Origin: Celeribacter ethanolicus
Lineage (GTDB): Bacteria > Pseudomonadota > Alphaproteobacteria > Rhodobacterales > Rhodobacteraceae
DNA: 64,000 bases
Direction: 5' to 3'
NCBI RefSeq assembly: GCF_001550095.1
Contig: NZ_LRUC01000052.1
Coordinates: 124,001-188,000 of the forward strand
In this document: one piece after another, positions 1-15,025 of the stretch
How the letters are laid out: the number at the start of each line of letters is the position of its first letter
How positions within the stretch are numbered: the first letter of the stretch is position 1
Notes under the pieces: generated by a model
The model's input: only the letters and a program-made list of their open reading frames with translations
Databases searched by the model: none
What the model was told of the DNA's origin: nothing
Program-made: the position numbers and the translations under genes

Positions 1-852
1 GATCAGCACGAAAGGCAGATCGCAGATCGCGGTCACGGTGGAGGAGGTGAAAAACTCCCGCACCGTCGCGAAATCACGCACCTGATTGGCAAAGACGCCA
101 GACGAGCCGGGCTGATGCGCCAGACGCATATTGGCGACCTTGTTGAACAATTGCGCCGAGAGCCGCAGATCGAGATCACGCCCGGACACGTCGACCAGAG
201 AGGCGCGCACGATCCGAAGCGCCACTTCGAGCACAATGGCGATGCCGACGCCGCTGGCGAGAATCCACAGCGTGTCGAAGGCGTTGTTCGGCACCACCCG
301 GTCGTAGACCTGCATGGAAAACAGCGCCGTCGCGATCGCCAGAATATTGGCCGCCAGAGAGGCCAGCATCACATCGCGGTACACCCACCAGTTTTCCATC
401 ACCGGGCCGAAAATCCAGTGACGCCCGTCCTTCTTCTTCTGGTCCAGTCGATTGGACACGATATCGAGCGGCTTCGAGATCAGGATGCGCCCGTCAAAAC
501 GCTCTTCGAGCGTCGCCCGATCCCAGATCGCGCGCCCACCGCCGGCTTCCGGCAGGATGACCTTGGCCTCGGTGTCGGACAGGGCCTCAAGGACGACAAT
601 GTGCCCCTCTTTCAGAAACAGCAGAACCGGCAGGCTGTGTGTCGGGAAGGCACTGAGGCTTTCACGGCTGATCCGGCAGCTCATATTGGCGCGCCGCAGC
701 GCGCTCGGCGCCAGATCGGGGCTCATACGCTCCCCGGCCTTCGCCGGCAGACCGTCGGTGAGTTGCGCCAGAGATGTGGAAACGCCCTGAACCCGGCATA
801 GCTCGATCAACCCGAGGGCAAGTGGGTCTGATATGAATTGTTCTTGTTTCAA
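1..852 (-). CDS. Type I secretion ABC exporter (LapB/HlyB-like), partial
   Basis: This is the inner-membrane permease/ATPase of a type I secretion system; only the first 284 codons lie in the window and the ATPase half is cut off at base 1. The visible part has an N-terminal C39-like domain (about residues 1-125) without an obvious catalytic Cys-Gly motif, as in HlyB/LapB exporters. An ABC transmembrane region follows, with the family string YDRVVPN and a later RDFATVREF stretch. The start is TTG at 852, chosen because GAGAGG sits 8 bases upstream and the first residues then read MKQEQFISDP. It lies 22 bp after the tolC-like gene on the same strand, so the two are probably cotranscribed. Confidence 0.85.
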   Translation of the reverse strand, partial: MKQEQFISDPLALGLIELCRVQGVSTSLAQLTDGLPAKAGERMSPDLAPSALRRANMSCRISRESLSAFPTHSLPVLLFLKEGHIVVLEALSDTEAKVILPEAGGGRAIWDRATLEERFDGRILISKPLDIVSNRLDQKKKDGRHWIFGPVMENWWVYRDVMLASLAANILAIATALFSMQVYDRVVPNNAFDTLWILASGVGIAIVLEVALRIVRASLVDVSGRDLDLRLSAQLFNKVANMRLAHQPGSSGVFANQVRDFATVREFFTSSTVTAICDLPFVLI

Positions 853-874
853 AGGTCCAATCCTCTCCCAGCCC

Positions 875-2164
875 TCATTGTCCGACCGATGACGACAGGA
901 TCAATGTCCCCAGCACACCAAGGTCGCGCGCGGTCTCGTATTCCGTGCGTTTGCGTTCATCATAACTGTCGATCTGTTCAATCTCGGCATCGTAGAGATC
1001 GCGCCCCGTGGTCAGCAGATCAATCAATTCGCGCTGACCGCCGATGAACTGCTGTTCATAGGTGTCGAGGACCCGCTGGGATTCCGTCAGTTGCGCTGCG
1101 CGGGACATTTCGCTCCGACGCAGCATCTCAAGGCTGACCAGCGCGGTGGTCGCGGCATTGGTCAGATCCTTCTCGACCCCGCTCATCGTCGACTGGGCCG
1201 CGGCCAGCTCCAGTTCCGCCGCCTGAACTTCGCGCCGCCCCAGACCGCTCGAACTCAGATTCATGCTGGTCGCAATCCCGACCGCCGTGCGGCTGTTGCC
1301 ACCATCGAGATCGACACGCCCCTGCGCCTGAAGCGAGATCGTCGGGAAACGCGCGGCTTTTGCGGTCTCGACACCGGCTTCGGCCTCATCCGCCGCAGCG
1401 CGGGCGGCAATATAATCAGGGGAAATACGCACGGCTGTCTTCAGTCGCGCGGGGTCCTTGTAAATCTCCGCGAAACCGAGCGCGGGAATGTCGGCGACCC
1501 CGCCGGGATCGCGCCCGATGAGATAGGCGAGCTGCGACAGCGCCATCTGACGGTTGGCGACAAGCTGTGCCATCTGATCTTCGGCGCGGACAATCTCCAG
1601 ACGCGCGCGCGCAACCTCCGCCGCATCGCTCACACCTGCGCGGGCCCGATCTTCGGCCTGTTTGGCGATCCGGCGCGCAAAAGACAGGTAGTCGCGGGTG
1701 CGCGCGATCTTGCGGTCCATCACCTCGACATCGAGGAAATAGCCCGCCAGGTTGAATGTCAGATCCTCGACCGCCATTTTCAGATCGGAAATCGCCTGAA
1801 CCCGGACATGAGACGCGGCCTTGATCTCACTGCGGATCAGCCCCCAGTCGAACAGAACCTGCGTGACAGTGAGCGAAACGCCCGCCCCATCGCCATCGGT
1901 CGTGCTGCTCTCCGCCGAGAGGCTGATCGAAGGGAAATATGCGTCTCGCGCAGCCTGAATCTCGATGGTCCTGCGGCTGACCTGCTGACGCAGCGCATTC
2001 ACTTGCGGGTCCTGTTCGGTCGCGATCAGGGTGGCTTCCTGAAGCGACATCTGTGCGAAAGACCCCGCGCTCGACATCAACAGAACAGTCGACGATGCAA
2101 GCACACCGAGCGCAATGCGCAAGCGAAAGGAACGGAACATCCGGGAACTGCTATCTCGTTTCAT
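875..2164 (-). CDS. TolC-family outer membrane channel protein
   Basis: This is the outer-membrane channel partner of the type I exporter that follows it. The 429-residue product has a signal peptide ending near SAGSFAQ. The mature part starts with the family-typical SLQEATLIATEQDPQVNA and contains two long alpha-helical coiled-coil halves, the repeat architecture of TolC/AggA/LapE proteins. The ATG overlaps the stop of the preceding gene (ATGA), indicating translational coupling with the BapA-prefix-like protein. Its substrates are not proven; the two upstream proteins are the best local candidates. Confidence 0.88.
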   Translation of the reverse strand: MKRDSSSRMFRSFRLRIALGVLASSTVLLMSSAGSFAQMSLQEATLIATEQDPQVNALRQQVSRRTIEIQAARDAYFPSISLSAESSTTDGDGAGVSLTVTQVLFDWGLIRSEIKAASHVRVQAISDLKMAVEDLTFNLAGYFLDVEVMDRKIARTRDYLSFARRIAKQAEDRARAGVSDAAEVARARLEIVRAEDQMAQLVANRQMALSQLAYLIGRDPGGVADIPALGFAEIYKDPARLKTAVRISPDYIAARAAADEAEAGVETAKAARFPTISLQAQGRVDLDGGNSRTAVGIATSMNLSSSGLGRREVQAAELELAAAQSTMSGVEKDLTNAATTALVSLEMLRRSEMSRAAQLTESQRVLDTYEQQFIGGQRELIDLLTTGRDLYDAEIEQIDSYDERKRTEYETARDLGVLGTLILSSSVGQ

Positions 2165-2835
2165 AAGGTATTTTCCGCGAACAGATCAGACAGCAGGTCG
2201 GAACCGGCATCCGTGAGATTGCCAAACAAAACATTGATTTCAGGTGATGTTTCGACATCCGCCTCGCCAAGCGCGACAGCGTCCTCATCGGCATCAATCG
2301 CCATCAGGCGCTCCTCAAGCTCGCTTGCCGCAAGCGCATCGACAGCCGCGCTCTTCGGGCTGCCGCCCTGCGAGGAGCTGTCGTCGAAAAAGTCCACGGC
2401 GCTCGATGTCGCCAGGCCGGCCAATCCGGCCCCCACCAGCAAAAGCGGATCGGTGCCCTCGTGCGCGATCCCCTCGCCCGCCTCCGATGGCGCCTGAGGC
2501 GCGTCAGACACCGACATTTCGCTTGCGACATCAGCACCTGCCTGCAACTCGGGCTCGGGGGCCATCAGTCCGGTCACCAGGACATCTCCGGCCTGAGTGA
2601 CCAGACGGCTGTAATCTCCGTTCTCGCCCATGACAAAGAAATCGTCGACGTAGAGAGAGTCTCCCGAAGCGAATTCGACCGTCAGATCCGTGCCGATTTT
2701 TTCATATCCGGAAATATCTTGTGCGGATACCGACAGAAAGAGTTGCTGCGGCACCTCAAGAGAAAGGTGTGACGCGACCTGTCGCTGGGCTTCCCCTTCA
2801 TCGCCATAACTGCGCAACACAACCTCAACGGGCAT
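2161..2835 (-). CDS. Free-standing BapA-prefix-like protein
   Basis: This 224-residue acidic protein has an N-terminal portion (about 20-90) that reads like the BapA/LapF prefix domain normally found at the very N-terminus of giant RTX adhesins: alternating beta-strand segments such as QQLFLSVSAQDISGYEKIG, then SGDSLYVDDFF. A Gly/Ala-rich hydrophobic segment (LLLVGAGLAGLA) follows near residue 140, then a disordered acidic tail. No adhesin repeats or RTX nonapeptides follow; the gene ends at 2161. Stop and tolC start overlap, so it belongs to the secretion operon. It could be a retention or periplasmic plug module working in trans, or a truncated adhesin. The prefix call is by pattern only. 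Confidence 0.6.
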   Translation of the reverse strand: MPVEVVLRSYGDEGEAQRQVASHLSLEVPQQLFLSVSAQDISGYEKIGTDLTVEFASGDSLYVDDFFVMGENGDYSRLVTQAGDVLVTGLMAPEPELQAGADVASEMSVSDAPQAPSEAGEGIAHEGTDPLLLVGAGLAGLATSSAVDFFDDSSSQGGSPKSAAVDALAASELEERLMAIDADEDAVALGEADVETSPEINVLFGNLTDAGSDLLSDLFAENTL

Positions 2836-3081
2836 CTATTTCTCCGTCCCCCAGAATTTCAACGCCACACCCAATCCTCGACCCCGCATCCATGCGGCAC
2901 AAATAAAAGGTATATCTTGGAATCATCTATTAACAGCTTTCCGCCACTTTTGGGATAGGAAAACTATTCTAAAGAATGGAATACAAACACCTTGTATAGA
3001 GTGGCATAAAAACCCCACCGAAGGCAACACGATAAGAGCTATGCGAACTATATTCCCATACGTAAGTTTAACTCAGAGCCC

Positions 3082-4983
3082 TCAAACGTCTCCCTCATCA
3101 CCGACGCCAAGCCCCGAGAGCAAACTGTCGCCATCGCCGAAGAGCGCGCCAAGCGCCTCTTCCACAACCGCGTCCCCCAGAATGCCGTCGGAACCGCCAT
3201 CACCAGCCCCCTCATCCCCATCGAGAAGCGCTCCAAATTCACTATCCGCACCGAGAATGTCCCCCATGCCGAGCCCAAGGATGTCGCTCAACAGGCCGTC
3301 AACCTCCGGGTCGTATTCCACAGCCGGACCGTGAGTGTCTGTCGGATCAATGATGCCACCATCGACAAGCATCCCTGCAAGGCTTTCAATCCCGGCGAGC
3401 CCGGCAAAGAGATCGTCAACGACACCCCCTGCCCCCACGGCTGCGTCATCGAGCGCAAGGCCGAAGGGATCGTCGTCCCCCAGAAGCCCGGCCAGAAGCG
3501 GGTCCTCCGCTCCCGGATCGCCCTCGACGGCACCCCCACCAAGCAAGCCATCCAGAAAGCCGTCATCGCCGTCCACCAGATCGGAAACGCCGTCACCAAC
3601 GGCATCCACCGCCTCCCCGACCCCCGTGACAACAGCTTCCACGGCCTCGGGTACAGCCTCGACAGCCTCGTCGACCGGGCTCGCGATCTCGGCCGTTTCA
3701 CTGGCAAGGACTTCGTCCTCAACGGCGGCGGTGTCTTCACTGCCTCCAAGCAGACCGCCCAAGAGACTGTTTCCACCCAAAAGCGTTCCGACCAGCCCAT
3801 CCTCTCCGAGCAAGGTCCCGACAAGGCCGTCCGAGCCAAGCAACGGATCGAGAAGCGGCACATCATCGACCAACTCGTCGAGAAGACCGTCTTCACCGAC
3901 GATTTCATCGAGCACGCCCGCCACAAGGCCGTCCTCCCCCACCAACCCGGCGACGACACCGTCTTCACCAAGCAGCGGATCAAGAAGGCCCGTCAAAAGA
4001 CCATCATCGCCAAGGAGATCGCCCACAAGAGGAACGTCTCCGAGCAGATCGTCCAGAATGCTGTCATCGCCGAAGAGCCCGCCCAACAGACCATCGTCCC
4101 CGACGAGAACCTCGACCAGAGCGTCGAGCAGCCCATCTTCTCCGGCAAGGCTTTCCAGCAGTCCGCCCTCGCCCACCAGTGAATCCAGAACGCCATCCTG
4201 ACCGAGCAGACCGGACAAAAGCCCTTCGTCGCCGACAAGACCGCCAAGCAACCCATCCTCGCCCAGGAGACCGCCGAGAAGACCATCTTCGCCAAGAAGC
4301 GCGTCGAGCAGATCGTCGATGAACCCCTCATCGCCCAGCAGACTGTCCAGCAAACCGTCTTCGCCGACAATGCCGTCCAGCAACCCGCCCACGACACCGT
4401 CATCCGCCGTAAGACTGTCCAGCAGATCGACACCCTCTTCCGTGGCAGTCTGCGTCAAGGATGTGACCGCGGTCAGGGTGGACGCCACCCCGTCTTCGCT
4501 GGCATCTTCCGGCAAAGAGGTCGCGACGGGAATGTCGGCGGCCGTTTTGATCGCGCCTCCGGACAGCGCAACACCATCTGCCGCCGCATCCAGAACATCC
4601 GCCAGACTCGCTTCATCGAACAAGTCGCTCTCGAAGCCCGCCACCAGCGCCCCGTCGCTCAAATCGGACAGGACACGAACACCGTCTTCCACGGTGACGT
4701 CAGAGGCGAACAGTGGCGACACGCCCCCCTGATCGGTGGAAAAGATCACTGCATTGGACGCGCCAGCCCCGGTCGCGACAGGGGCCGCCTGAGCCCCAAG
4801 CCCGCCGGACTGCGCAGCCAGGCCCATGCCGATCGCACTGGCCGCGACAGAAAAGCCGGTTTGCCCGGAACCATTCGAGGAAGAAACGCTCGAAGCGCTC
4901 GGAATGGATGCGCTGAAACTGGAGGCGATATCACCTGCCCCCTTGCGCACCCCAACGTCGCTCGCAGTCTTATCCTTCGCCAC
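3082..4983 (-). CDS. Acidic Leu/Gly/Asp tandem-repeat protein, T1SS-linked
   Basis: The 633-residue product is not a recognised family. It starts at a GTG (4983) preceded by GGAGAG. Residues 1-180 are Ser/Ala/Gly rich without a Sec signal. Residues about 185-415 are a degenerate array of 10-15 residue units of the type LLGEDGLLDSLLG. The rest is acidic and Gly-rich with further LLGG motifs. There are no cysteines and almost no basic residues, typical of leaderless type I secretion cargo. It lies 246 bp upstream of the BapA-prefix gene on the same strand as the exporter, so it is inferred to be the exported substrate or a surface/biofilm matrix component. The function is unknown. Confidence 0.7.
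   Translation of the reverse strand: MAKDKTASDVGVRKGAGDIASSFSASIPSASSVSSSNGSGQTGFSVAASAIGMGLAAQSGGLGAQAAPVATGAGASNAVIFSTDQGGVSPLFASDVTVEDGVRVLSDLSDGALVAGFESDLFDEASLADVLDAAADGVALSGGAIKTAADIPVATSLPEDASEDGVASTLTAVTSLTQTATEEGVDLLDSLTADDGVVGGLLDGIVGEDGLLDSLLGDEGFIDDLLDALLGEDGLLGGLLGEDGLLGGLVGDEGLLSGLLGQDGVLDSLVGEGGLLESLAGEDGLLDALVEVLVGDDGLLGGLFGDDSILDDLLGDVPLVGDLLGDDGLLTGLLDPLLGEDGVVAGLVGEDGLVAGVLDEIVGEDGLLDELVDDVPLLDPLLGSDGLVGTLLGEDGLVGTLLGGNSLLGGLLGGSEDTAAVEDEVLASETAEIASPVDEAVEAVPEAVEAVVTGVGEAVDAVGDGVSDLVDGDDGFLDGLLGGGAVEGDPGAEDPLLAGLLGDDDPFGLALDDAAVGAGGVVDDLFAGLAGIESLAGMLVDGGIIDPTDTHGPAVEYDPEVDGLLSDILGLGMGDILGADSEFGALLDGDEGAGDGGSDGILGDAVVEEALGALFGDGDSLLSGLGVGDEGDV
3740..4430 (-). repeat. Degenerate GEDGLL coding repeats
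   Basis: Within the acidic protein, roughly two dozen imperfect units encode variants of GEDGLLxxLLG, GDEGLLSGLLG or GDDGLLTGLLD. At DNA level the plus strand shows recurring words such as GAGACCATCTTCGCC and AAGCCCTTCGTCGCC. The units vary in length, unlike a recent exact tandem duplication. The high strand bias creates long antisense open frames that are not genes. Confidence 0.75.
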
Positions 4984-5231
4984 TCTCTAGGCTCTCCATG
5001 CTAAGTGATCGCATCTTGTCGCACTCACGACGAAGACAAGACCGGGCCTACGCGCAATTGCACACCACGAACGAATCCGAAAGCGGCAAACGCAGACCTA
5101 TTACCACCGATAGTATGTATAAATCTATCCCTTTGCAACATCATGCTCGACCAGAGCATATCCAGACCACAAGCGCATAAAGCTTAGTGCCTTTCGAGAA
5201 AACAGACGAAGAGCCGAAAACGTCATCTTTA

Positions 5232-5606
5232 TCATGCAAATGCGACAGCACCCGATGGGTATCGCCCCAAACATGCCGCCACAAACCCCACGACGATACG
5301 AGTTACCACCCAGACCATTGCGCCCGCCACAACGTAAAATCGCGCGCCCCCGAAAGCCCCCAGCGCAACGAGTCCGAACAAGGCCGCCCCAATCCAGAAT
5401 GTTCGAATAATATAGAGAAAATGGGCATCCGATATCGAATTTTCTCTTTGAGACCAATAGGCCGATATCACCCCGGCAATTGCGAAAACCGGGATCACAA
5501 GACCTATCGCCATACATCCGTAAAGGATTTTCGCTTTCACAAGAACATCATGGCCCTCAGCCCCCCTATCATCCCGGGAGGAAAGACCGCTCTTCAACCA
5601 GGCCAT
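5232..5606 (-). CDS. DUF4870/Tic20-like small membrane protein
   Basis: This 124-residue protein resembles small alphaproteobacterial membrane proteins annotated as DUF4870/Tic20-like. It has a first transmembrane helix (about 28-48, YGCMAIGLVIPVFAIAGVIS) followed by AYWSQ, then the family-like string HFLYIIRTFWIGAALFG opening a second helix, and a third around residues 90-110. The role is unknown. It reads toward the repeat-protein gene with a 248-bp gap containing no other gene I can support. An overlapping open frame at 5125-5517 on the same strand is rejected as a frame shadow. Confidence 0.7.
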   Translation of the reverse strand: MAWLKSGLSSRDDRGAEGHDVLVKAKILYGCMAIGLVIPVFAIAGVISAYWSQRENSISDAHFLYIIRTFWIGAALFGLVALGAFGGARFYVVAGAMVWVVTRIVVGFVAACLGRYPSGAVAFA

Positions 5607-5653
5607 CGAAGATCACCGCCTCAGCAAGATATAAACTAAAGTAAATGTTACAA

Positions 5654-5925
5654 CTAAAGTATATATTCAAGCAATTCATAATTTTGCGCTGTCAGACGAA
5701 TCCGAACTTCCTTCAACATGGACAGTGGACCGGTCCTTTCAGCCACGCTGTGAAGCTCGTCGGCAAGATTCAGAGCGCGTGTCCAAGTCCACTTGTTGAT
5801 CGTGCCGAAGTACCTCAAGGAGACTTTTCCGCGGCTCAGTGACCTTCTGCTCCCTAGGATTTGCTCTGTCTGAGCCCATCGTATTTCAGGGTCAATGTCT
5901 TGGCGCCGGTCACGCCGCCCCTCCT
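5654..5925 (-). pseudogene. Possible gene remnant without a start codon
   Basis: On the minus strand an open frame of about 85 codons runs from a TGA near 5925 to a TAG at 5654-5656. It reads like natural protein (for example RYFGTINKWTWTRALNLADE and KEVRIRLTAQNYELLEYIL), but the only ATG is late and there is no ribosome-binding site at its beginning. It may be the 3' end of a gene cut by an earlier insertion on the downstream side of tRNA-Ser. No family is recognised. The rest of 5607-6055 shows nothing I can name. Confidence 0.3.
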
Positions 5926-6055
5926 CTCAAATCCGCATAGATGGGAGCGATTGAGGCGCCGTAAGAGACAGTCGACGACGTTTCACAATTTGTAGCACAA
6001 ATTTGTGCACAAAAATCGCTTAAGTCATTGTTTTTGCATGATGTGAAAAATGAGA

Positions 6056-6069
6056 TGGCGGAGGAGGTG
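6056..6069 (+). repeat. Distal att repeat (tRNA-Ser 3' end copy)
   Basis: TGGCGGAGGAGGTG duplicates the last 14 bases of tRNA-Ser(UGA), here without the rest of the tRNA. It marks the integrase-proximal border of the island, about 160 bp upstream of the integrase start. Confidence 0.8.
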
Positions 6070-6189
6070 TCGCCCATCGTAGATTCTGGGGTATTCCTGA
6101 AATTTGCATTTTGTTCCTAATATAACAACGTATTAGTCGATTTTCGCGTTCCGACTAATTCTTGTGGATTCCTGCTATTTCCCGTTTTA

Positions 6190-6213
6190 AAAGGGGGAAC
6201 AAAAGAGGGAACA
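6190..6213 (+). repeat. Integrase arm-site-like tandem 12-mers, left end
   Basis: There are two adjacent 12-mers, AAAGGGGGAACA (6190-6201) and AAAGAGGGAACA (6202-6213), between the att repeat and the integrase start. The same word recurs in the same orientation near the other end of the island (14576-14598). They are proposed arm-type binding sites for the N-terminal domain of the integrase; they may also overlap its promoter. Confidence 0.6.
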
Positions 6214-6227
6214 TAGTATAGTTTTTT

Positions 6228-7445
6228 ATGGGAAACGGGATGGGTAAGAAACTCACGGCGACCTTCGTGCGAAATATTCAAGCGCCGGGGAGCTATTCGG
6301 ATATGGGCGGCATGGGGCTGCGTCTGCGGGTCAAACCGGATGGTCGGAAAAACTGGATTCAGCGCCTCACTGTGCGCGGGAAGGTCAGGGAGACCGGTCT
6401 CGGGTCTTTCCCGGTTGTGACCCTCGCCATGGCGCGTGACAAGGCGATTGAGAATAAGCGCATGGTGATCGACGGGCTGGACCCGATTGAGGAACGCCGC
6501 AAGACACGCGCCCGGCTGAGTTTCGCGGATGCTGTGGATCGCTACATTGACGTGAAGGTGCGGGAGCTTCGGAACGAGAAACACCAAAAGCAATGGCGGT
6601 CTACGCTGGACACGTATGCCGTGCCGATCATCGGGGCGCTGCCGGTCGATAGCCTGACCGTGCATGACGTGCTGCGGGTGCTTGAGCCGATCTGGACGAC
6701 GAAAACCGAAACCGCGACCCGGCTGCGGCAACGCATGGAAGCGGTCCTGTCATGGGCGAGCGTGTCGGGGTTCCGCACCGATGCAAACCCGGCGATCTGG
6801 AAAGGCAATCTCTCGGAATTGCTGCCCAAGCCCGGCAAGGTCGCCAGCAAGCGCCACCATGCGGCGGTGCGTGTCGCGGATATGCCCGAATTCTGGCAGG
6901 CGCTGTTGGCGCGGGACGGAATGAGTGTCATGGCGCTGCGCTTCCTGTGCCTGACGCTCGCGCGTTCGGGCGAGGTGCGCGGGATGGTCTGGAACGAGGT
7001 GGATTTGGACAACCGTCTGTGGGTCATTCCGGCAGAGCGGATGAAAGCCGGGCGCGAACATCGTGTGCCGCTTCCCGATACGGCGGTGAGCCTACTCAAG
7101 GCGGTGCCCCGGGTGAAGGGCTGTGACCATGTGTTCTTTTCGACCCGCAACGGTCCACTCTCGGATATGTCCCTGTCTGCGGTCATGCGACGGATTGACG
7201 AGAAAGCACAGGAAACCGGCAGCAAACGCTTCCTAGACCCTCGCTCCAACCGCCCAGCCGTCCCGCATGGCCTGCGCTCCACCTTCCGCGATTGGGCGGC
7301 AGAGAATGGCGTTGATCACATTCAAGCCGAGTTGGCGCTGGCGCATACTGTTGGAAGCGAGGTGGAAAGGGCGTACCGGCGCACGGATATGGTGGAGCAG
7401 AGACGGGGGCTTTTGGAGAAGTGGGTGGGGTTTGTGGGTGGGTAG
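6228..7445 (+). CDS. P4-type tyrosine integrase
   Basis: This is a site-specific recombinase that would integrate and excise the island at tRNA-Ser. The product is 405 residues, standard length. An N-terminal arm-binding domain (about 5-85) carries LRLRVKPDGRKNWIQRL. A SAM-like core-binding domain (about 100-180) precedes the catalytic domain. Visible catalytic residues are the Arg in LARSGEVRG, HGLRSTFRDW (His-x-x-Arg), a late His in LALAHTVGSE and the nucleophile Tyr in ERAYRRTD. The start is 6228 (ATG), with an in-frame ATG at 6240 as alternative. It is transcribed into the island, away from the att repeat. Confidence 0.95.
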   Translation: MGNGMGKKLTATFVRNIQAPGSYSDMGGMGLRLRVKPDGRKNWIQRLTVRGKVRETGLGSFPVVTLAMARDKAIENKRMVIDGLDPIEERRKTRARLSFADAVDRYIDVKVRELRNEKHQKQWRSTLDTYAVPIIGALPVDSLTVHDVLRVLEPIWTTKTETATRLRQRMEAVLSWASVSGFRTDANPAIWKGNLSELLPKPGKVASKRHHAAVRVADMPEFWQALLARDGMSVMALRFLCLTLARSGEVRGMVWNEVDLDNRLWVIPAERMKAGREHRVPLPDTAVSLLKAVPRVKGCDHVFFSTRNGPLSDMSLSAVMRRIDEKAQETGSKRFLDPRSNRPAVPHGLRSTFRDWAAENGVDHIQAELALAHTVGSEVERAYRRTDMVEQRRGLLEKWVGFVGG

Positions 7446-7662
7446 GAGGAGCAGGAGGCTTGGCCTCAACGACACAGCCTAGCTTCCAAGGATTTCATTC
7501 GAGAGATCCACACGCTAGGGCTTTTCAGGAGCGCGCGCCGGATGAATTCAGCGGCAGGAGAGTTGATCTTGGTGTGTTATGAGATTCTTGCTGCAAGGAT
7601 ACTGCGCATAAGTTATGTCTTTTCTGCACACATATTTGGTGTTCTTTTGCTGTCAGCACTAG

Positions 7663-8097
7663 TTGGTTGACAGTGCGCGCGAGCGGTTTAGTTATAGCTT
7701 AACAAAATTCAGGCAGGTTGCTTTGAAAGATGGGTACGAAAAAGTCGCTGAAGGAGCCTATTGTGAGGTATGGCTTTCGAAAAAAGCGATCAAAATCCTC
7801 AAGAAGGCGCCGCCAAAAGATCGGGGACGTATTGGGAATATTTTCGAACACCTGTGTGAGCAAGGTCCTGAAGACCTGAATGAAGAACAGTTTAAGGCCG
7901 AAGGTCGTTTTCCGACCGGAGGACAAAAGAGCAAGAATGTGATGATATATGTTGGAAAGTCGTATCAACTCCGCGTGTACGGGTGTTGGAATGATGGCCC
8001 GCCCAGACAATTTGAATGCCCAGAAGCCGTAATCAAGAAAAAAAATAGGGCAGATCAAGAGGTGCTAAAACGAGTAGCACGCAATTTTGGAGAATAG
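7663..8097 (+). CDS. RelE/HigB-type toxin of a TAC-like module
   Basis: This is the probable toxin of a three-gene module. The core reads YCEVWLSKKAIKILKKAPP then DRGRIGNIFEHLCEQGP, followed by QLRVYGCW, a layout like RelE/HigB mRNA-interferase folds (alpha-alpha-beta with basic helices). The longest frame begins at TTG 7663; an in-frame TTG at 7723 gives a 124-residue product and may be the real start, since no ATG fits. Two bases separate it from the antitoxin ATG. The toxin-first order is the one used by HigBA. GC content is clearly lower than in the flanking core genes, consistent with transfer. The specific toxin family is inferred. Confidence 0.6.
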   Translation: MVDSARERFSYSLTKFRQVALKDGYEKVAEGAYCEVWLSKKAIKILKKAPPKDRGRIGNIFEHLCEQGPEDLNEEQFKAEGRFPTGGQKSKNVMIYVGKSYQLRVYGCWNDGPPRQFECPEAVIKKKNRADQEVLKRVARNFGE

Positions 8098-8099
8098 AG

Positions 8100-8501
8100 A
8101 TGGCGATCAATAAAGAGCTGTTTGGCCCTCAAAATGACGGCGAAAAAGAAGCGTTCGCGATTGAGGCACTCGTTTTCTCGGTTCAGGTCGCGCTTCAGAA
8201 AGCAATGAACCGCAACGGCGTTACGAACAAACAACTGGCTGAGCGTTTGGGGATGACGCCGGCGCGAGTTTCACAGATCTTCTCGACGAAAGGTGCAAAC
8301 CTGACTCTGAAGACGATTGCTCGCATTCAGGAAGCGCTGGGGGAAGAGTTTGAGTTGATCTCGAAACAAGACATTCGACGCCCGGTGAACACTCGACGTG
8401 TCCAAGAGTTCAGGCTTTATGTGGCGCGTGGAAATTCGTCCGTATGGAAAGAGCAAGCGCCGACCAATCACAATGCGAAGGTCGAAAGAGTAGCTGCGTG
8501 A
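8100..8501 (+). CDS. XRE-family antitoxin with C-terminal extension
   Basis: This 133-residue DNA-binding antitoxin has a helix-turn-helix of the Cro/C1 type at about residues 35-85: GVTNKQLAERLGMTPARVSQ, then NLTLKTIARIQEALGEEFEL. A roughly 45-residue tail follows, with EFRLYVARG and SSVWKEQ. In chaperone-dependent antitoxins such a tail carries the chaperone-addiction segment with exposed aromatic residues, so the tail here is the candidate for binding the next gene product. Its stop overlaps the start of the SecB-like gene by one base. It probably autoregulates the operon. Confidence 0.8.
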   Translation: MAINKELFGPQNDGEKEAFAIEALVFSVQVALQKAMNRNGVTNKQLAERLGMTPARVSQIFSTKGANLTLKTIARIQEALGEEFELISKQDIRRPVNTRRVQEFRLYVARGNSSVWKEQAPTNHNAKVERVAA

Positions 8502-8992
8502 TGGCTGGTGTAATCCCAAAAGCTGAAACTAGCGAGGTTAAACCACATAGCGAAAAGTTCGAATTCGACTATGAAGTTTATGCTGACATCTCCGTTTCGG
8601 CGATACTGTCCGAAATCAGGCTGATCGGGTCTGAGTATTCCGTGAAACCAGAAATTTTCCGTGTACTCGAAGACCTTGGTAACATGGCTCATGATTTTTC
8701 TGGTGTATGCAAAGCTCTCGACTTTATCGAAGAGGAAGGTGTCGCGATAGGGCAGTATAGCTGGACTGCTTCTATTAAGTATGGCCGGAAGAAAGTGCTC
8801 AAACTATCGACAAACTATTTGGTTACTTATGAGGGGCTTGAAGGAAAGGATGGTGATCACGTCGCTGTCTTTTTCAATAAGGTCGTTCGCTTTGCGACCT
8901 ACCCCTACTTTCGGGCACTCTTTAGTCATCATACTGCGGAAACGGGCATTATGATGCCGCCTTTGCCGTCTCTCAATGAGCGAGTTGACTGA
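8501..8992 (+). CDS. SecB-like chaperone of a TAC-like module
   Basis: This 163-residue protein with a SecB-like pattern has an N-terminal strand region FEFDYEVYADISVS and the C-terminal string FATYPYFRALFSHHTAETG then MMPPLPSL, matching the SecB layout in which a YxR helix is followed by Gly-x-x-PLPL. The ATG at 8501 overlaps the antitoxin TGA. A longer in-frame start at 8444 lies wholly inside the antitoxin and is rejected. In TAC systems the chaperone binds the antitoxin tail and protects it from proteolysis. The family call is by eye and should be confirmed by profile or structure search. Confidence 0.6.
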   Translation: MAGVIPKAETSEVKPHSEKFEFDYEVYADISVSAILSEIRLIGSEYSVKPEIFRVLEDLGNMAHDFSGVCKALDFIEEEGVAIGQYSWTASIKYGRKKVLKLSTNYLVTYEGLEGKDGDHVAVFFNKVVRFATYPYFRALFSHHTAETGIMMPPLPSLNERVD

Positions 8993-9020
8993 AGGAATAC
9001 TGCATTTGCCATGTGTTGTG

Positions 9021-9048
9021 ACCGGCGCCGCTATCGCGCCGGTTTTTT
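9021..9048 (+). terminator. Rho-independent terminator after the TAC-like module
   Basis: The 8-bp stem ACCGGCGC / GCGCCGGT encloses a 7-base loop and is followed by a run of T. It lies 29 bp after the chaperone stop, closing the three-gene transcript. Confidence 0.85.
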
Positions 9049-9138
9049 AGTGTCGGATCGGACTCGACATTTGAGCGAGCTTCGTGGAGCGCGGGATGGC
9101 TTCTGCACGATTTATGTTCACTTTCTCCTGCCGAGAAT

Positions 9139-9669
9139 CTAATTGGTTTTTGAAATGTCCAGGTCGATCCCAAGCTTGATCCATGCCTCAATCGTATCTT
9201 TCACCTGATCGAACATGTATTCGTTCAGGTTTTTTGAGTCCCACACCGTCCAGACATATGGAAATCCTATTTGCCCAACGATGAGCTTGCTCTGGTCGTA
9301 GCCCGGAGCAATCGCGCCGCGAAATGTCGAGTTCAAGTAGCCAATACAAACACCACTGTCTTCGCGGGAGGCTCGTACGTGTAGGTTGTATTCTGCGATA
9401 TTTTCGCGGAGTAAAGGGTGCGGAGCGTGCGGAAGTTCTGCTTTAAATTCGGGCTCGTCTATTACGTTGAATCCTGCGAGTGCCAGTTGGTCTTCTGCGT
9501 ACTTTTTCGTCTCGCGAATGTTGGTCCAGCAACCGTTGGTTGCGTCGTCATTTAGCCGCACATAGACCCCATCAAAGTCATTTGGTTCCCAGAGCGGGTC
9601 GGCGAAAATTGGCGCTGCAACTAAAGCGGTTTGCACCACAATAAGGCCTCTGAATACTGATCTAAGCAA
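9139..9669 (-). CDS. Secreted protein of unknown function
   Basis: This 176-residue protein has a clear Sec signal peptide (basic MLRSVFRG, hydrophobic core, AAPIFA cleavage region). The mature part contains two cysteines (NDDATNGCW and SGVCIGYLNS) that could form a disulfide, and an aromatic-rich segment GFPYVWTVWDS. No family is recognised. It is a single gene on the minus strand facing the TAC-like terminator and is island cargo by position; its AT-richer codon use matches the TAC genes. Probably periplasmic or exported. Confidence 0.65.
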   Translation of the reverse strand: MLRSVFRGLIVVQTALVAAPIFADPLWEPNDFDGVYVRLNDDATNGCWTNIRETKKYAEDQLALAGFNVIDEPEFKAELPHAPHPLLRENIAEYNLHVRASREDSGVCIGYLNSTFRGAIAPGYDQSKLIVGQIGFPYVWTVWDSKNLNEYMFDQVKDTIEAWIKLGIDLDISKTN

Positions 9670-10396
9670 TGAGGCTCCTCCAATGCCGTGAAACTATATC
9701 GCCCAAATTCTGAGGTGCAATGATAGTCAAAGAAACGCGTGGAAAAGTGCAGAAATGTTTTGATCTGTGCAGACGAAGAAATCGGACATTTGCTGAATTC
9801 CTTTGTGAAATGGAGCCACAGCTCTCATCGAAAGGTTCGCGCATTCTGAAAATGGGTATTTTTTGATTCGAGGTTTTGGCGGCTTCGGCACCCGTTTTCG
9901 ATCTGATTTGTCCGAAAACGCCGTCTGAAATCGTCAGCTTGGAGTAAATAAGCTGGGTATTTATCGGTTCATAAGCTTATTAACGGTTTGCAATCTCAAT
10001 GGCTCTCAAAAGCAGGGGTTTTGAAACTATGACTATCCGAATAGGTAAATAACGAAGGGCGCGCTTATATACCCTTGATTGGCAAATTTGAAATCTCGAA
10101 ACAGGATTATCATATTGATAAATTGTATTTATTTTCGCCTCTGGGGCGCATGTCGTCTATATTGACTTACGTACTTTAAGCCTGAGTTCATAAGTCGATT
10201 TCATTTGAATTCTGCCCCCGTCTTGCGCTTATTTCGGCCTTGCGAGGCGCTTCCCGGTGGTAGGCGGCTTGTGTCGGAACCGATGCGCTAACATCGGTCC
10301 CGACGAGTTGGGACTCAGCAAGACCCACTCCCTCATATCGCCAGAAACATGACCGCGTCAAAGCTCTTGGCGCGGAACAGAGGAGGTTTGTCCAAA
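9670..10396. other. AT-rich non-coding stretch upstream of the AlpA block
   Basis: No convincing gene occurs in this 727-bp stretch; short open frames lack ribosome-binding sites and protein-like composition. Visible structure includes an 8-bp inverted repeat AATAAGCT (9947-9954) / AGCTTATT (9974-9981) and a TACGTA (10168-10173). The location between divergent genes, next to a Toprim/DUF3987 block, would suit promoters and possibly a replication origin, but nothing proves that. Confidence 0.5.
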
Positions 10397-10573
10397 ATGG
10401 AAAGCCGTGTTCTGAGACGACCCGAGGTCGAACATATGGTGGGCCTGTCCCGCTCGACGATTTACGCGATGATGGCCGAGGGGCTTTTCCCGAAGCCGGT
10501 GCGGCTGGGACGCCGAGCGGTCGGGTGGCGCGAGGCGGATTTGCGCCGCTGGCTTGCAAGCCGGGAGGTGTAA
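10397..10573 (+). CDS. AlpA-family regulator / excisionase-like protein
   Basis: This 58-residue winged-helix DNA-binding protein reads [22 protein letters not shown], then [14 protein letters not shown] and [11 protein letters not shown], the complete AlpA/MerR-like pattern. The start at 10397 is chosen because AGGAGG lies 10-16 bases upstream; a longer frame from 10349 lacks such a site. AlpA proteins in P4-like islands activate integrase or act as recombination directionality factors. It heads a tightly packed five-gene block. Confidence 0.9.
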
Positions 10574-10576
10574 GCG

Positions 10577-10882
10577 ATGGAGGGATCAAGCCCGACGCCC
10601 GGCAATGTCTCGGCCAATCAGGGCCATTGCGAAACCGCCGCGAACTATCGCTGCGTCATTGTCACACATGGCCGCTACCGGGTCGCGATCTGTCGCGATG
10701 GGGTGCAGTGGCTGTTTCAAAAATGCACCCGCGAAAAACCCTGTGCTCGGGCGCGCTGGAAGACGGTCGGGTACTTCGTCACCCGCGAGGCGCTGCGCGC
10801 GCTCCAACACAGGTCTACGGGCGCGAATTGGCCGGAATTGGACGCACTTCCCGAGGGAATGAATCGGGAGACCAAAGAATGA
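10577..10882 (+). CDS. Small island protein of unknown function
   Basis: This 101-residue protein begins 4 bp after the AlpA stop and overlaps the next start. Its middle contains [19 protein letters not shown], then WLFQKC and [15 protein letters not shown], a compact alpha/beta pattern with four cysteines. I do not recognise a family. Its fixed place between AlpA and a Toprim primase-like protein suggests a role in replication or control of the island. Confidence 0.65.
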
Positions 10883-11763
10883 GCCGCGCGGAGAACCTGA
10901 CCCGTCAGCTCGGCGGGCGCTGGCACGGCCATTACGGTATGGCACTTTGCCCTTCACATGAAGATCGCAGGCCAAGTCTCAGTATCGCATTAGGAAATGA
11001 CGGACGCATTTTGCTCAAATGCCACGCGGGATGCTCTTACGCGGACATTCGCGCGGCGCTTGAGGTGGGCGGTATGGATCGGAGCACGTTGCAGGGCAAT
11101 CCGGCCATCGATCCCGAACGAGACGCGGCGCGGCGGGCCAAGGCGGAGGCGGAGCACCGTAAGCGTTCGGAACAGGCACGGCGGCTTTGGGAGGTCGCGC
11201 AACCTATCTACCGTAGCGTAGCGGAGACCTACCTACGTAGGCGCGGGATCAGTTGCGCGCTACCTGATACGCTACGCTACGTAGAGAATTGCTGGCACCC
11301 GAGCGCCAAGCGGCTGCCAGCCCTTATGAGCTACGTATCGGGCGGGACCGGGTTTGCGGTGCATCGCACTTACCTACGTACCGATGGGAGCGGTAAGGCC
11401 CCCGTCACGCCCGCCAAGGCCATGCTCGGGCGCACCAAGGGCGGAGCTGCGCGCCTAATTAGGGGCTACGGGCGTTTGGTGGTCGCGGAAGGGATCGAAA
11501 CCGCTCTTTCCCTCGCCTCGGGCCTAATTAAAGATCGCCCGTCGATCTGGGCCGCTTTAAGCGCGTCCGGGATGATCTCCCTGCGCCTGCCGCAACAACC
11601 GGGCCTGCTAACCATTGCCGGGGATGGTGATCCTGCCGGACGCGCGGCGGCGGAGCAACTGGCCCGGCGGGCCTCGGACATGGGCTGGCAGGTCTCGCTC
11701 ATGACGGCCCCCGAAGGGAAAGACTGGAATGACGTGCTGCGGGAACGGGAGGGGGCGCTGTGA
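10879..11763 (+). CDS. Toprim-domain primase-like protein
   Basis: This 294-residue protein is likely to handle primer synthesis or DNA replication of the island. The N-terminal part reads [16 protein letters not shown], then [13 protein letters not shown], a CHC2-type zinc-binding module as in DnaG-like primases. The C-terminal part has the Toprim signature [13 protein letters not shown] and [18 protein letters not shown] (Glu and Asp-x-Asp metal ligands). The start at 10879 overlaps the upstream gene, and a longer open frame from 10525 overlaps it in a different frame and is rejected. Four TACGTA hexamers lie within 150 bp of this gene. DUF3987 follows with stop/start overlap. Confidence 0.85.
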
Positions 11764-13259
11764 ACATGCTGCCGCAAGAAACCCCGTTCCTCGGCGACTG
11801 GCCCGTACCCTCACCACGTCTCACGCAGGGCACGACCTTGCCCGCGCCGGAATTGCCTCTCACAGATGTGTTCGGGCCGCTCTGGGCCGATTGGATCAGT
11901 CGGGCGGCAGAGGCCAAATCTGCCCCGCCGGATTATGTCGTGGCGGGTCTGCTCGCCACGGTCGGTTCGGCCATCGGCAACACCCGTTGGGCTGCACCAT
12001 GGGAGGGCTGGCAAGAGCCGCCGATCCTCTGGACCATGGCGATTGGGTCGCCGTCTTCGAACAAATCGCCCGGCCTCGACGCGGTGCTGGGACTGATCAA
12101 GGAAGTTGAGCGCGAGAAGCGACAGGCCATGGAAGGCGATCTGGCGGAGTGGCGCGAGAAAGCCGAGATTGCCAAGCTGGCGGAAAGCGCGTGGAAAGAG
12201 GCGGCAAAGGCCGCGCTGAAAGACGGGAGCGAGCCACCGGAGCGCCCCGATACGCTACGTATCGAACCTGAACCATTCCTTCCGCGCTTTTCGATTGCAG
12301 ACGGAACTGTGGAACGGTTGGCGGTGATCGTCTCGAAACAGCCGCGTGGCACCTTGCTGGCGCGCGATGAGCTGGCAGGGTGGTTACAGGGTATGACGCG
12401 CTATTCCGGCGGTGGCTCTGACCGGCCTTTCTGGTTGGAAGCCTATGGCGGGCGGGCCTATTCGGTCGAACGGATGGGGCGGGAGCCGGTGCATATCGAC
12501 CGGCTGTCCATCGCCGTCACCGGGGGCATTCAGCCGGACCGGCTCAAGTCCCTGCTGCTGCGGAGCGATGATGACGGGTTGCTGGCGCGGTTCATCCCGA
12601 TCTGGCCCGATCCGGTGCCGCTGCGCAGACCACGCACACAGGCCGGGGCGGAACGCTGCGCCATGGCCCTTCGGCGTCTCTACGGCCTCTCGATGTATCG
12701 CGACGAAAACGACAGGGAGCGGCCTTGGGTCATGCCCTTCTCCGATCCGGCGCGGGATGTGCTCGACGCCTTCCGCCTCTCGGTGCGGGCGTGGGAGCGC
12801 GATGCGGAGGGGCTGCTCTTGTCTTTCATTGGCAAGATGTCCGGTCTCGCGGTGCGCCTGTCGCTGATCCTGTCCTATCTCGATTGGGCTATGAGCGATG
12901 AGCCGGAGCCGCAAGAGATCAGCCATAATGCTTTGGGACGGGCGGCGCATTTCATTGAGTTTTACGCCCTGCCGATGGCACGGCGGGCCTATGCGGATGC
13001 GGCGACTTCGAAAGCCGAACGCGGCGCGCGGCGTTTGCTCGATGCGATCCGGGCGCGGGGCTGGCCGCGCTTTACAAGCCGGGAGGCTCTGCGCCTTGAT
13101 TTGTCCGGCCTCAACTCCGTAGCACAGCTCAACGCGGCGCTGACGGTGCTGGAGGACGGGGACGCGATCCGCCCGATTGCACCGCCGCCCAATCCCAACG
13201 GAGGTCGCCCCACACGGCTCTTCGCGGTCAATCCGGCGCTCTTGGCAGGACTGCCATGA
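11760..13259 (+). CDS. DUF3987 (YfjI-like) protein
   Basis: This 499-residue protein of the DUF3987 family is commonly paired with Toprim/primase proteins in integrated elements. It starts at GTG 11760 overlapping the upstream TGA, with ATG at 11766 as alternative. A P-loop-like region ([15 protein letters not shown], about 95-110), then [10 protein letters not shown] (about 205) and [14 protein letters not shown] match the family. The family resembles superfamily-3 or DnaB-type helicase folds, so a helicase role in replication is inferred, not shown. A charged coiled-coil insert lies at about residues 120-170. Confidence 0.82.
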
Positions 13260-13570
13260 GCGTCTGGCTCGATGCCGCCCGGCAGGGTCCGGGGGCGATG
13301 ACAAAACTGACAAAACCGACAAAACTCAAGTCCGGGCGGGCTGCCGGTCCGGGCGTTCCGGGGGAGGTTTTGTCAGTTAAGTCGGTTTTGTCAGAGGGGG
13401 TAAGGCTTGCCCCCTCTGATCAATTCGACCTCTGGGAAGAAGGCGCCGCAATCCTACAATTTGACGCCGGGATGAGCCGGGAGCGAGCAGAAAGCGAGGC
13501 GGCAAGGCGACTCGGGTTGTCACTGTTTGACATGCAGACATTGGTGGAGAGTGCGGCGAAAGCGAACTAA
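13256..13570 (+). CDS. Small island protein with TK-repeat coding segment
   Basis: This 104-residue protein overlaps the DUF3987 stop (ATGA). Residues about 15-27 read MTKLTKPTKLKSG, and the C-terminal half (FDLWEEGAAILQFDAGMSRERAE, split by a short linker from LGLSLFDMQTLVE) is helical. The DNA encoding the N-terminal third carries GACAAAAC words in direct and inverted orientation (see the repeat entry). No function is known; it is the last gene of the AlpA block. Confidence 0.65.
   Translation: MSVWLDAARQGPGAMTKLTKPTKLKSGRAAGPGVPGEVLSVKSVLSEGVRLAPSDQFDLWEEGAAILQFDAGMSRERAESEAARRLGLSLFDMQTLVESAAKAN
13298..13395. repeat. Direct and inverted GACAAAAC words
   Basis: GACAAAAC occurs three times in direct spacing (ACAAAACTGACAAAACCGAC region, 13299-13326). 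Its complement GTTTTGTC appears twice (13367-13391), separated by a GC-rich 40-bp loop. The arms can pair, so the segment could act as an iteron-like or hairpin element although it lies within a reading frame. Confidence 0.6.
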
Positions 13571-13649
13571 GAGCCCATATTACCGGATGCTGCGCAGCGC
13601 ATGAGCGTCAATTTTGTGGAAACGACACGCTCATTGTGCGGCGACTGAG

Positions 13650-14009
13650 CTACTCCCCATTTCTGGTTAAGTCCAATTTGAAAAATTTAATTATGAACGC
13701 GCGCGCTGGTCGATGTTCGCATCCTGTAATTCGCCCCAAGCGCAAACTCGTAAGCAACCACTCATTCGCTAGGAAAAAAGTTATAAGAAAAGCTGCTGCC
13801 GAAAATCCCCAAACAGGGAATGAGAGGATGAGCACAAAGCTTATGTCCCACCCCAAGTACTGGCTCACCTCATCTAAGAGCAGAAATGCCATAGCCTGAA
13901 CGTAGAGGGTTAAGAATAAGCCGACTGGAGAAGCTAAGAATGGTAGCCTGTCATATTGCCTAATATACCATTTAACCAATTGTCGGAAAGGCTTCATTAT
14001 TTTCCTCAT
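13650..14009 (-). CDS. Small membrane protein of unknown function
   Basis: This 119-residue protein has two strongly hydrophobic helices (about 25-47, LASPVGLFLTLYVQAMAFLL, and 57-80, FVLILSFPVWGFSAAAFLIT) flanked by basic ends (MRKIMKPFRQLVKWYIRQYD and a Lys/Arg-rich tail), typical of a small inner-membrane protein. It may start at 14009 or at the second ATG (13997), which has GAGGA upstream. It faces the AlpA block tail-to-tail. AT-rich codon use marks it as island cargo. Confidence 0.55.
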   Translation of the reverse strand: MRKIMKPFRQLVKWYIRQYDRLPFLASPVGLFLTLYVQAMAFLLLDEVSQYLGWDISFVLILSFPVWGFSAAAFLITFFLANEWLLTSLRLGRITGCEHRPARAFIIKFFKLDLTRNGE

Positions 14010-14024
14010 AAAATCAAACCCCTT

Positions 14025-14417
14025 TCAAAGCTGAAACCCATAATTCCCTCCCAACCCGACAGCTCCCAGCTTCCGAAAGAACCGATCTGCCTTTGCGATA
14101 TGTTCCCCGGAGCTGACATAGAACAACACCAGATGCGCGTCCTGTGATTTTGACCAATCCAGCACCTCACGAACAATATTCAGGGTCACTTTGCCACCAA
14201 GAAAGGTCCCGTGCACGCTTTTTACGTGTGAAATTCAAAACAATAACTGTCCAAAATGTGGATTGGTAATTTGATATCCGAGCGCGTGCTCCCAAATGCC
14301 GTGGCATTTCGTGGAATGCATCTGCAGCGAATGTCCGGTTTCCCGCCCTTCGAGCAAAACCTCCCGCATATGCGGCACATATCGAGCGATTGCTGCAAAC
14401 GGCAGTTTCGTCCGCAT
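14025..14417 (-). pseudogene. Gene interrupted by an in-frame TGA
   Basis: Two open segments (14238-14417 and 14025-14234) are in the same minus-strand frame and separated by a single TGA at 14235-14237. The second segment, VREVLDWSKSQDAHLVLFYV then KADRFFRKLGAVGLGGNYGF, resembles the C-terminal end of a GNAT acetyltransferase. The first has no obvious acetyl-CoA motif. The simplest reading is a decayed gene of about 130 codons; two unrelated short genes are less likely because the second has no good start. Confidence 0.5.
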
Positions 14418-14575
14418 AGTGATCGTTGGTAGATCAGCAGATGAATGTCGGCTTTCTCCTAGATCGGCAGTCTTTCAATATCTCAGGTCAAAACCAAAAC
14501 ACCCAACGCGCCGTCACGAAACCCCGTGGTCGGCGCGTTGTTTTTGAGAAACCCAAACTCAGGCATGGAATCCAA

Positions 14576-14598
14576 AAAGGGGATCAAAAGGGGGAACA
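14576..14598 (+). repeat. Integrase arm-site-like tandem 12-mers, right end
   Basis: AAAGGGGATCA (14576-14586) is followed directly by AAAGGGGGAACA (14587-14598), the latter identical to the left-end copy at 6190-6201 and in the same orientation. It lies 55 bp inside the tRNA-Ser end of the island. Confidence 0.6.
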
Positions 14599-14652
14599 AA
14601 TTTCGCGAAGTCGTGAAAAATTGCTCAAATACAATGAGTTAATGGAAATATG

Positions 14653-14666
14653 TGGCGGAGGAGGTG
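14653..14666 (+). repeat. tRNA-proximal att repeat
   Basis: TGGCGGAGGAGGTG forms the 3' terminus of tRNA-Ser (minus strand), identical to 6056-6069. The tRNA stays intact, as expected for P4-type integration into the tRNA 3' end. Confidence 0.8.
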
Positions 14667-14740
14667 GGATTCGAACCCACGGATGCTTGCACATCGCCGG
14701 TTTTCAAGACCGGTGCATTCGACCACTCTGCCACTCCTCC
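14653..14740 (-). tRNA. tRNA-Ser(UGA)
   Basis: On the minus strand the gene begins GGAGGAGTGG at 14740 and ends CCTCCGCCA at 14653 with an encoded CCA. The acceptor stem GGAGGAG pairs with CTCCTCC, the anticodon loop reads CTTGAAA (anticodon TGA), and the T arm GGATTCGAACCC is visible in complement. The long variable arm fits a class II serine tRNA. Its 3' end is the attachment site of the island. Confidence 0.97.
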
Positions 14741-15025
14741 GTGAGCGCATGTGTTGCGATCCGCAGAGCCTTAGCGCCCTTGTTACGATTCTGAAACCCG
14801 GGATGTGACAGACCACGCCCCGGCATTTGCCGTTTTTCGCCGTCTGGCACACGCGGGGCTTTCCTGTTTCCGACCGAAACGCTAGACTGCCCGCAAGACG
14901 CCGGGGAAGGTGTGTCCAACGGGTTCGCCCATGTGCCCCTTCCGCCTTGGTGCAACCATGAGCAGACCAATAAACCACATATAAAATCCGTGCCGCACCA
15001 AAAGGCACGACGAAGGGGCAAGATC

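Follow-up and report, generated by a model that had tools for sequence, protein, structure and literature searches.

The closest described systems are toxin–antitoxin–chaperone (TAC) modules. According to the excerpted text of the sources cited, tryptophan W108 in the antitoxin tail of the Mycobacterium tuberculosis TAC is buried against D27 and R29, among other residues, of the chaperone, and Y114 of the tail contacts L154-L157, among others (PMC6377645); the ClpX degron of the antitoxin HigA1 consists of its last residues, Val-Ala (PMC8165232). Excerpts of the same kind report that HigBAC is activated by the major tail protein of lambda (PMC11980606), that the antitoxin of CmdTAC is degraded by ClpP unless the chaperone is bound, with the capsid protein of T4 as the trigger (PMC11618068), and that MqsRAC protects against T2 (PMC9519451).

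Three adjacent genes of the window (the whole stretch of DNA analysed, 64,000 nucleotides) were compared with these systems. Very probably they constitute a TAC module that rides as cargo on a P4-type integrative island of 8.6 kb in a tRNA-Ser gene and works by means of a chaperone-addicted antitoxin; the module is most likely a genuine TAC, representing a divergent clade of the known kind. The gene order, homologies, co-divergence, tail features, operator-like palindrome and island borders are present at sequence level. A TAC module had already been proposed in the initial annotation and that proposal is supported; neither of the two results named there as speaking against it, a third product lacking the SecB fold or a triplet not conserved as a unit, was found. 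The module comprises the following features:

7667-7672, + strand: TTGACA, putative -35 box of the operon, in a similar place 5' of the toxin in several closer relatives
7686-7703, + strand: putative palindromic operator GTTTAG-N6-CTTAAC, from the pattern match in relatives
7723-8097, + strand: toxin, remote Gp49/HigB (RelE superfamily), TTG start, placed from the alignment of relatives; profile match to the Gp49 toxin of locus L124
8100-8501, + strand: HigA-like antitoxin with an XRE/HTH_3 domain at residues 32-85 (HTH_3 2.9e-8; HigA chains among the PDB matches of the family profile)
8364-8498, + strand: antitoxin tail, residues 89-133, putative chaperone-addiction region (W116 codon at 8445-8447, C-terminal AA at 8493-8498)
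8501-8992, + strand: SecB-like TAC chaperone, 163 aa, from the profile match to Rv1957 and the TAC-type SecB group
9020-9044, + strand: terminator-like hairpin followed by a T run (9 pairs, 7 of them G-C)

Toxin, antitoxin and SecB-like chaperone are adjacent in one predicted operon. The coupling described earlier (three + strand genes, a 2-bp gap, then a 1-bp overlap) was confirmed in the open reading frames: 2 bp separate the toxin end at 8097 from the antitoxin start at 8100, and the antitoxin and chaperone frames share 1 bp at 8501, all on the + strand. The toxin start had been placed at 7663, a mechanically called TTG just 5' of the TTGACA box and the palindrome; it is probably wrong, because the relatives begin to align at window position 7723 (TTG start, 124 aa) and counterparts of box and operator lie upstream of their toxins, so that 7723 is the most likely start. 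The codon at the matching position is TTG in the window, L004, L029, L030, L032, L033 and L041, and GTG in L034 and L039.

A second, identical copy of the module was found in the assembly of the source genome (G000). Contigs C10 (1-149179) and C48 (111718-260896) appear to overlap end to end over 149 kb; the first 17 kb of the window and two further places that were compared showed 0 differences, and the first 1283 bases of C10 showed 1. Since the two contigs look like such an overlap at the places compared, the second copy is probably assembly redundancy and the genome has one copy; a true duplication was judged less likely.

The island around the module spans 6056-14666 (8.6 kb) in the tRNA-Ser gene, between 14-bp repeats, and its other recognized features are:

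6056-6069, no strand assigned: left attachment repeat, 14 bp, identical to 14653-14666, from the repeat search
6228-7445, + strand: tyrosine integrase, P4 type (Arm-DNA-bind_3 2.9e-17, Phage_int_M 4.7e-27, Phage_integrase 2.8e-19)
10349-10573, + strand: AlpA-type regulator (Phage_AlpA 8.6e-21)
10525-11763, + strand: Toprim primase, true start uncertain (Toprim_3 1.3e-20, DUF7146 6.2e-31)
11760-13259, + strand: DUF3987 protein (PF13148 2.3e-63)
14653-14740, - strand: tRNA-Ser (tga), whose 3' end is the attachment site with the right repeat at 14653-14666, from the repeat and the tRNA call

An arm-binding tyrosine integrase together with repeats at the tRNA 3' end characterizes a P4-type island as a predicted element, and the view of the module as island cargo was borne out by the P4-type integrase, AlpA, primase and repeats at the tRNA. 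Apart from this repeat, no 14-mer of the tRNA region (14600-14760) has a second exact occurrence in the window, both strands considered. When five congeners were opened, homology to the window began at 14643-14653, and nothing in the 14-19 kb to the left matched window positions 1-14642. The tRNA-Ser gene is an integration hot spot, because one of the five, L139, has a different integrase (36% identical) beside it.

Other observations were made in the window. The 169 bp left of the island (5894-6062) are 80% identical to L020 (G000:C44:14151-14319), a stretch abutting a tRNA-Ser (gga), which suggests that a related element of greater age ends here and that elements accreted in tandem. The - strand of 3082-4983 encodes a predicted 633-aa protein in which repeats of the LLGEDGLLGGLLG type are numerous, adjoining an ORF at 875-2164 labelled by eye as outer-membrane-efflux-like. 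Behind the terminator, an ORF on the - strand (9139-9669, 176 aa) has a signal-peptide-like start and no Pfam match.

Relatives of the module occupy comparable settings. That of L039 is on an integrase/DUF3987 island, that of L014 lies about 3.5 kb from a P4-type integrase, one is on a Sphingobium plasmid typed as conjugative, and two viral contigs carry the module behind a terminase-like gene (gpA domains were tested for L029, one of the two). On plasmid NZ_CP128179.1 (L009, 432-5495), a TAC has a Mov34/MPN/PAD-1 gene and a metallohydrolase as neighbours and VirB/conjugation genes nearby, in what may be a defence cluster; the toxin of this locus lacks several residues conserved in the other toxins.

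These settings bear on the role of the module. The same TAC machinery could serve to keep the island in the genome, since its loss would leave a stable toxin and an unstable antitoxin. In favour of such addiction, the module is located on an integrative island, near P4-type integrases in L039 and L014, on the conjugative-typed plasmid and in viral contigs, and island, plasmid and viral carriers would all profit from it. The TAC modules tested elsewhere, in the excerpts available of those reports, nevertheless defend against phages, and simple addiction needs no chaperone sensor; as the main effect of the module, island maintenance is rated less likely than not. By analogy with the tested systems, a switch for phage defence is plausible, with chances about even, and the two roles are compatible and not mutually exclusive.

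As a single sequence, the window chaperone matched no model of Pfam, NCBIfam or PADLOC at E up to 1, gave weak matches to PHROGs families of unknown function (best 0.069), retrieved nothing useful from the PDB and found no counterpart among 50,697 phage records. The 19-row profile of the chaperone family (A7) matched one distinct sequence among 177,635 of the PDB set at E up to 10, namely 5mtw_C, the SecB-like chaperone Rv1957 (E = 0.003). The cut-off of Pfam SecB (PF02556) was not reached; this model touched 2 of the 19 chaperones (best 0.14), weakly, and yet more members than any other family did. Known TAC chaperones also fall outside PF02556, as reported in excerpt for 33 sequences.

In the alignment of A7 with 5mtw_C, window residues E38-I39-R40 fall on D27-I28-R29 of Rv1957 and M152-P153-P154-L155 on L154-P155-P156-L157; this matching requires the numbering of the 5mtw_C chain to run 3 ahead of that of the protein, an offset that suits both motifs. 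The correspondence to D27 and R29, two of the residues that contact the ChAD peptide of the antitoxin, is suggestive, because the first segment scores just 3.4 bits. Position 40 is R or K in 16/19 chaperones and position 38 is acidic in 12/19, the seven without an acid at the D27 position counting against the correspondence; P156 is kept in all 19.

A phylum-wide search with A7 gave, beside the source genome, a single locus, L124 (E = 0.0013 for one genome; 2/299 genomes), and this match alone proves little because 299 genomes should yield about 0.4 such matches by chance. L124, too, is a triplet of Gp49 toxin, HTH_3 antitoxin and chaperone, and its Gp49 toxin and HTH gene make it credible as a bridge. 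Its chaperone alone again matched only 5mtw_C in the PDB set (E 0.031), and it finds plasmid genes annotated 'preprotein translocase subunit SecB' in 4/5 records. In the plasmid loci L140 and L141, a hypothetical protein and an MqsA-family antitoxin are encoded upstream of the SecB-like gene, so that these loci look like MqsRAC-type TACs; the L140 antitoxin belongs to PF15731 (1.7e-16), and the first gene of L140 had no Pfam match. The chaperones of L124, L140 and L141 were combined in a three-row profile (A12), to which A7 was aligned by hhalign (90%, E = 1.7e-6, score 44.9; best of 100 shuffles 18.8); with L124 left out the values were 48%, E = 1.9e-4 and 32.2 (best of 60 shuffles 18.4), each hhalign E-value referring to one comparison. 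The third protein is homologous, by profile, to SecB/TAC chaperones. The comparison with SecB by profile HMM that the initial annotation had suggested thus yielded homology to the TAC-type SecB chaperones, in support of its SecB-like label.

The toxin was assigned through the same bridge. As a single sequence, it had no match with E up to 1 in Pfam, NCBIfam or PADLOC, and its PHROGs matches were weak and to families of unknown function (best 0.15); without a Pfam match, it lies below the cut-off of Gp49/HigB (PF05973), a family matched by 3/18 members of the toxin family (best 0.0022). The toxin profile (A8, 18 rows) had five PDB matches at 0.042 or worse, none of them a toxin. Against the toxin of L124, which had no part in finding that locus, A8 aligned with 94% and E = 1.2e-7 (score 45.8, maximum 18.1 in 100 shuffles), and HMMER gave 18.4 bits (E 1.8e-4) in a comparison set made of the ORFs of 26 viral stretches and five toxins. 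The L124 toxin is a Gp49 protein at 5.3e-13, over the cut-off, and through it the window toxin is homologous to an accepted member. Against a mixed Gp49 set A8 matched weakly (7%, E 0.0052; 0/100 shuffles as good). The description as a RelE/HigB-like toxin is upheld by this path from the family profile to the Gp49/HigB toxin of L124, and the protein is most likely a toxin of Gp49/HigB type, which would be a ribosome-dependent mRNA endonuclease.

The antitoxin matches HTH_3 at 2.9e-8 in Pfam. Its family profile matches HigA structures in the PDB, two chains of other names ranking higher. The PADLOC matches to PDC-M64B/C cover the HTH region and were not taken as a classification.

In the alignment of 23 antitoxins (A9), one tryptophan of the tail (W116 in the window) is aligned in 23/23, while the rest of the tail is variable. 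This residue lies 16-22 positions from the end in 18 antitoxins and 24-57 in the other five, where the alignment is less certain. The final residue is alanine in 22/23 and the last two are Ala-Ala in 19/23; a C-terminal alanine occurs in 0/18 toxins and 1/19 chaperones. After clustering at 70% identity, the tryptophan was found in 20/20, the final alanine in 19/20 and Ala-Ala in 16/20. The aromatic residue in the C-terminal extension and the terminal alanines, both read from sequence alone, are a putative chaperone-binding site and a putative ClpX-type degron, and they fit such elements as expected. Two tail motifs had been pointed out as aromatic candidates; the tryptophan of VWKEQ never varies in the alignment, and LYV shows no conservation. 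The antitoxin of L124 has neither the tail tryptophan nor AA, which counts against the assignment, and the two MqsA-type TAC antitoxins are mixed, one having the tryptophan and ending in YGY, the other lacking it and ending in VA.

Relatives were gathered from whole genomes, plasmids, viral contigs and GTDB genomes, and 17 loci, either controls or records fetched a second time, were excluded before the triplet scan; the rows of A7-A9 were hand-picked among the loci, leaving out near-duplicates. Locus L002, a 49-residue tblastn segment only and without a profile match, was dropped. The chaperone was found in 34 of the 35 loci scanned, the window included, and in 30 of the 34 toxin, antitoxin and chaperone follow in this order. 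In distinct records, after merging L005 with L034, L006 with L036, L007 with L041 and L025 with L038, toxin and antitoxin precede the chaperone in 26/30; L044 and L045 are still identical in all three proteins, and L031 and L046 in the chaperone. The exceptions are L031 and L042, which start at a contig end, and the plasmids L010 and L011, with two other genes upstream. Of the 30 triplet loci, eleven had contributed rows to the toxin and antitoxin profiles and four are duplicate records of those eleven; toxin matches in the other 15 range from 4.2e-5 (L044, L045) to 3.4e-47. The suggested check on co-occurrence in other genomes accordingly shows a triplet kept as a unit.

The three proteins co-diverge: over 18 loci, pairwise distances correlate with r of 0.89 (toxin-antitoxin), 0.88 (antitoxin-chaperone) and 0.84 (toxin-chaperone), and 0/5000 permutations were as high for any pair; shared ancestry contributes to these values. 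In the genome searches, toxin and antitoxin stood upstream in 8/8 other genomes where the chaperone was found. Counting the source genome, the chaperone occurs in 5/292 genomes of the order, 5/394 of the family, 3/385 of the class and 2/299 of the phylum.

These data also bear on a rival reading, that of an ordinary higBA pair followed by a third gene that is unrelated or there by coincidence. In its favour, Pfam does not recognize the third protein, and antitoxins of the HigA type function without a chaperone. There is, in the excerpt of the report, a precedent in Caulobacter, where the gene behind higBA encodes a LytTR regulator and not a chaperone (PMC13384398). The association in the scanned loci is no argument against this explanation, because most loci were collected through the chaperone. 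The third protein, however, co-diverges with the other two and is homologous to TAC chaperones, and in the reverse search, a small test, the toxin matched in 2/248 family genomes, both at TAC loci. A plain higBA pair is considered quite improbable.

Upstream of the toxin, TTGACA (7667-7672) stands 19 or 20 bases before TTATAG/TATAGC; a generic promoter scan of the window did not report this box. The pattern GTTWAG-NTATAN-CTTAAC occurs 5' of the toxin with up to 4 mismatches in 22/23 loci and up to 3 in 20/23, only L028 failing, and random stretches, as many as 100 from each locus, had minima of 4-6 mismatches; chance would give 0.01 matches with up to 3 mismatches in the window. The pattern is a description and not an independent test, because it was derived from the same loci. 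It led in viral contigs to 26 stretches, two of them with all three genes (both already known loci) and one further with a weak antitoxin-profile match only; as few of the 26 carry the module, the pattern alone is not specific. The antitoxin probably binds at 7686-7703, and autorepression is the natural reading, since the antitoxin carries an HTH. Downstream, the strong terminator claimed earlier is present as the hairpin of 9020-9044 with its T run; as one such site was found against a mean of 1.6 in shuffles, the case for it lies only in its form and position.

That the module has decayed and is inactive is very improbable. Its rarity (5/394 family genomes) would suit decay, but the frames are open, all three proteins keep conserved motifs and the operator-like palindrome is conserved. 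In addition, among ten pairs from one related clade, the seven that had diverged further (those including L038 or L040) have dN/dS of 0.05-0.22 in each of the three genes, a test that covered loci of that clade and not the window; the other three pairs, too similar to judge well, gave 0.00-1.93. It is extremely improbable that an export SecB landed by chance behind a toxin–antitoxin pair, because, despite a weak profile similarity to export SecB (A7 against A10, 16 export SecBs: 4%, score 21.7, barely above the shuffle maximum of 20.7; single export SecBs 0.1-16%), the chaperone is nearer to the TAC type (44.9, or 32.2 without L124) and the source genome has its own export SecB.

Taken as a TAC, the module may be pictured to work as follows. 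The antitoxin would bind the toxin and, with its HTH, probably the operator, repressing the operon. Its tail could not survive alone, having a W-centred site for a dedicated chaperone and an Ala-Ala end that fits a ClpX-type degron. With the chaperone on the tail, the antitoxin would fold and be protected; if other clients drew the chaperone off, the antitoxin would be degraded and the toxin would stop translation. RNase activity, autoregulation, chaperone addiction and proteolysis are what we infer here. If CmdTAC and HigBAC are a guide, the most likely natural trigger, at about even odds, would be a structural protein from a phage that infects the cell.

The same chaperone clade was also observed with other partners on the Sphingobium plasmids NZ_CP128178.1 (L010, 2926-5462) and NZ_CP005085.1 (L011, 2908-5462). 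In L010, the chaperone follows a 417-aa protein that no family matches and a MarR-like protein of 245 aa (below cut-off) with tryptophans in its tail and DLAA at its end. A nitrilase assignment of the 417-aa protein, made by eye, had no support in Pfam, NCBIfam and PDB searches. These loci are possibly TACs with a new type of toxin. One may speculate, although we consider it unlikely, that the SecB-like clade is an exchangeable sensor head for phage-like structural proteins; it would guard HigB on alphaproteobacterial islands and viral contigs, and the 417-aa protein, via the MarR-like antitoxin, on plasmids. Relatives of the Rhodobacteraceae make gene transfer agents, and in this family the capsid proteins of the host itself could also trip the sensor. 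If true, the 417-aa protein would be a new toxin type for TAC systems.

Among the literature matches listed (including PMC5105189, PMC4257090, PMC13236601 and PMC6504116), the excerpts contained no description of the clade, a prior listing being possible; the kind is known, and none of the family libraries searched appears to classify the clade. The TAC systems thereby gain a divergent clade, whose window toxin and chaperone are invisible to Pfam and NCBIfam. At this distance features of chaperone addiction would persist, namely the tail tryptophan, the C-terminal alanines, YPYFR of the chaperone and the conserved proline of LPPLP, and a predicted operator and a compact, testable module become available for the question of what TAC chaperones sense.

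Compared with the described systems, the module shares with CmdTAC (PD-T4-9) its tripartite composition, and the CmdTAC antitoxin ends in LAA; the CmdTAC toxin, in contrast, is an ADP-ribosyltransferase, and the excerpt of the source (PMC11618068) does not speak of an XRE domain in its antitoxin. With the MqsRAC-type TACs of plasmids L140 and L141, it has in common the SecB-like group to which the window chaperone aligns by profile, whereas the antitoxin of L140 is of MqsA type (PF15731). HigBAC of Escherichia coli, likened from its description in the excerpted source, combines a toxin of the Gp49 family with an antitoxin and a SecB-like chaperone (PMC11980606), the same layout as in the bridging locus L124. 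The HigBA-SecB TAC of M. tuberculosis (Rv1955-Rv1957) is remote in sequence, the tail tryptophan of the window clade often being followed by x-E/D and not by HR, and the window clade is found in integrative island and viral contig contexts. Both have the order toxin, antitoxin, chaperone, an HTH antitoxin with a tail and a SecB-like chaperone, as well as, in the part of the literature available, a tail tryptophan and a hydrophobic-alanine antitoxin C-terminus, and Rv1957 is the only PDB match of the window chaperone family profile.
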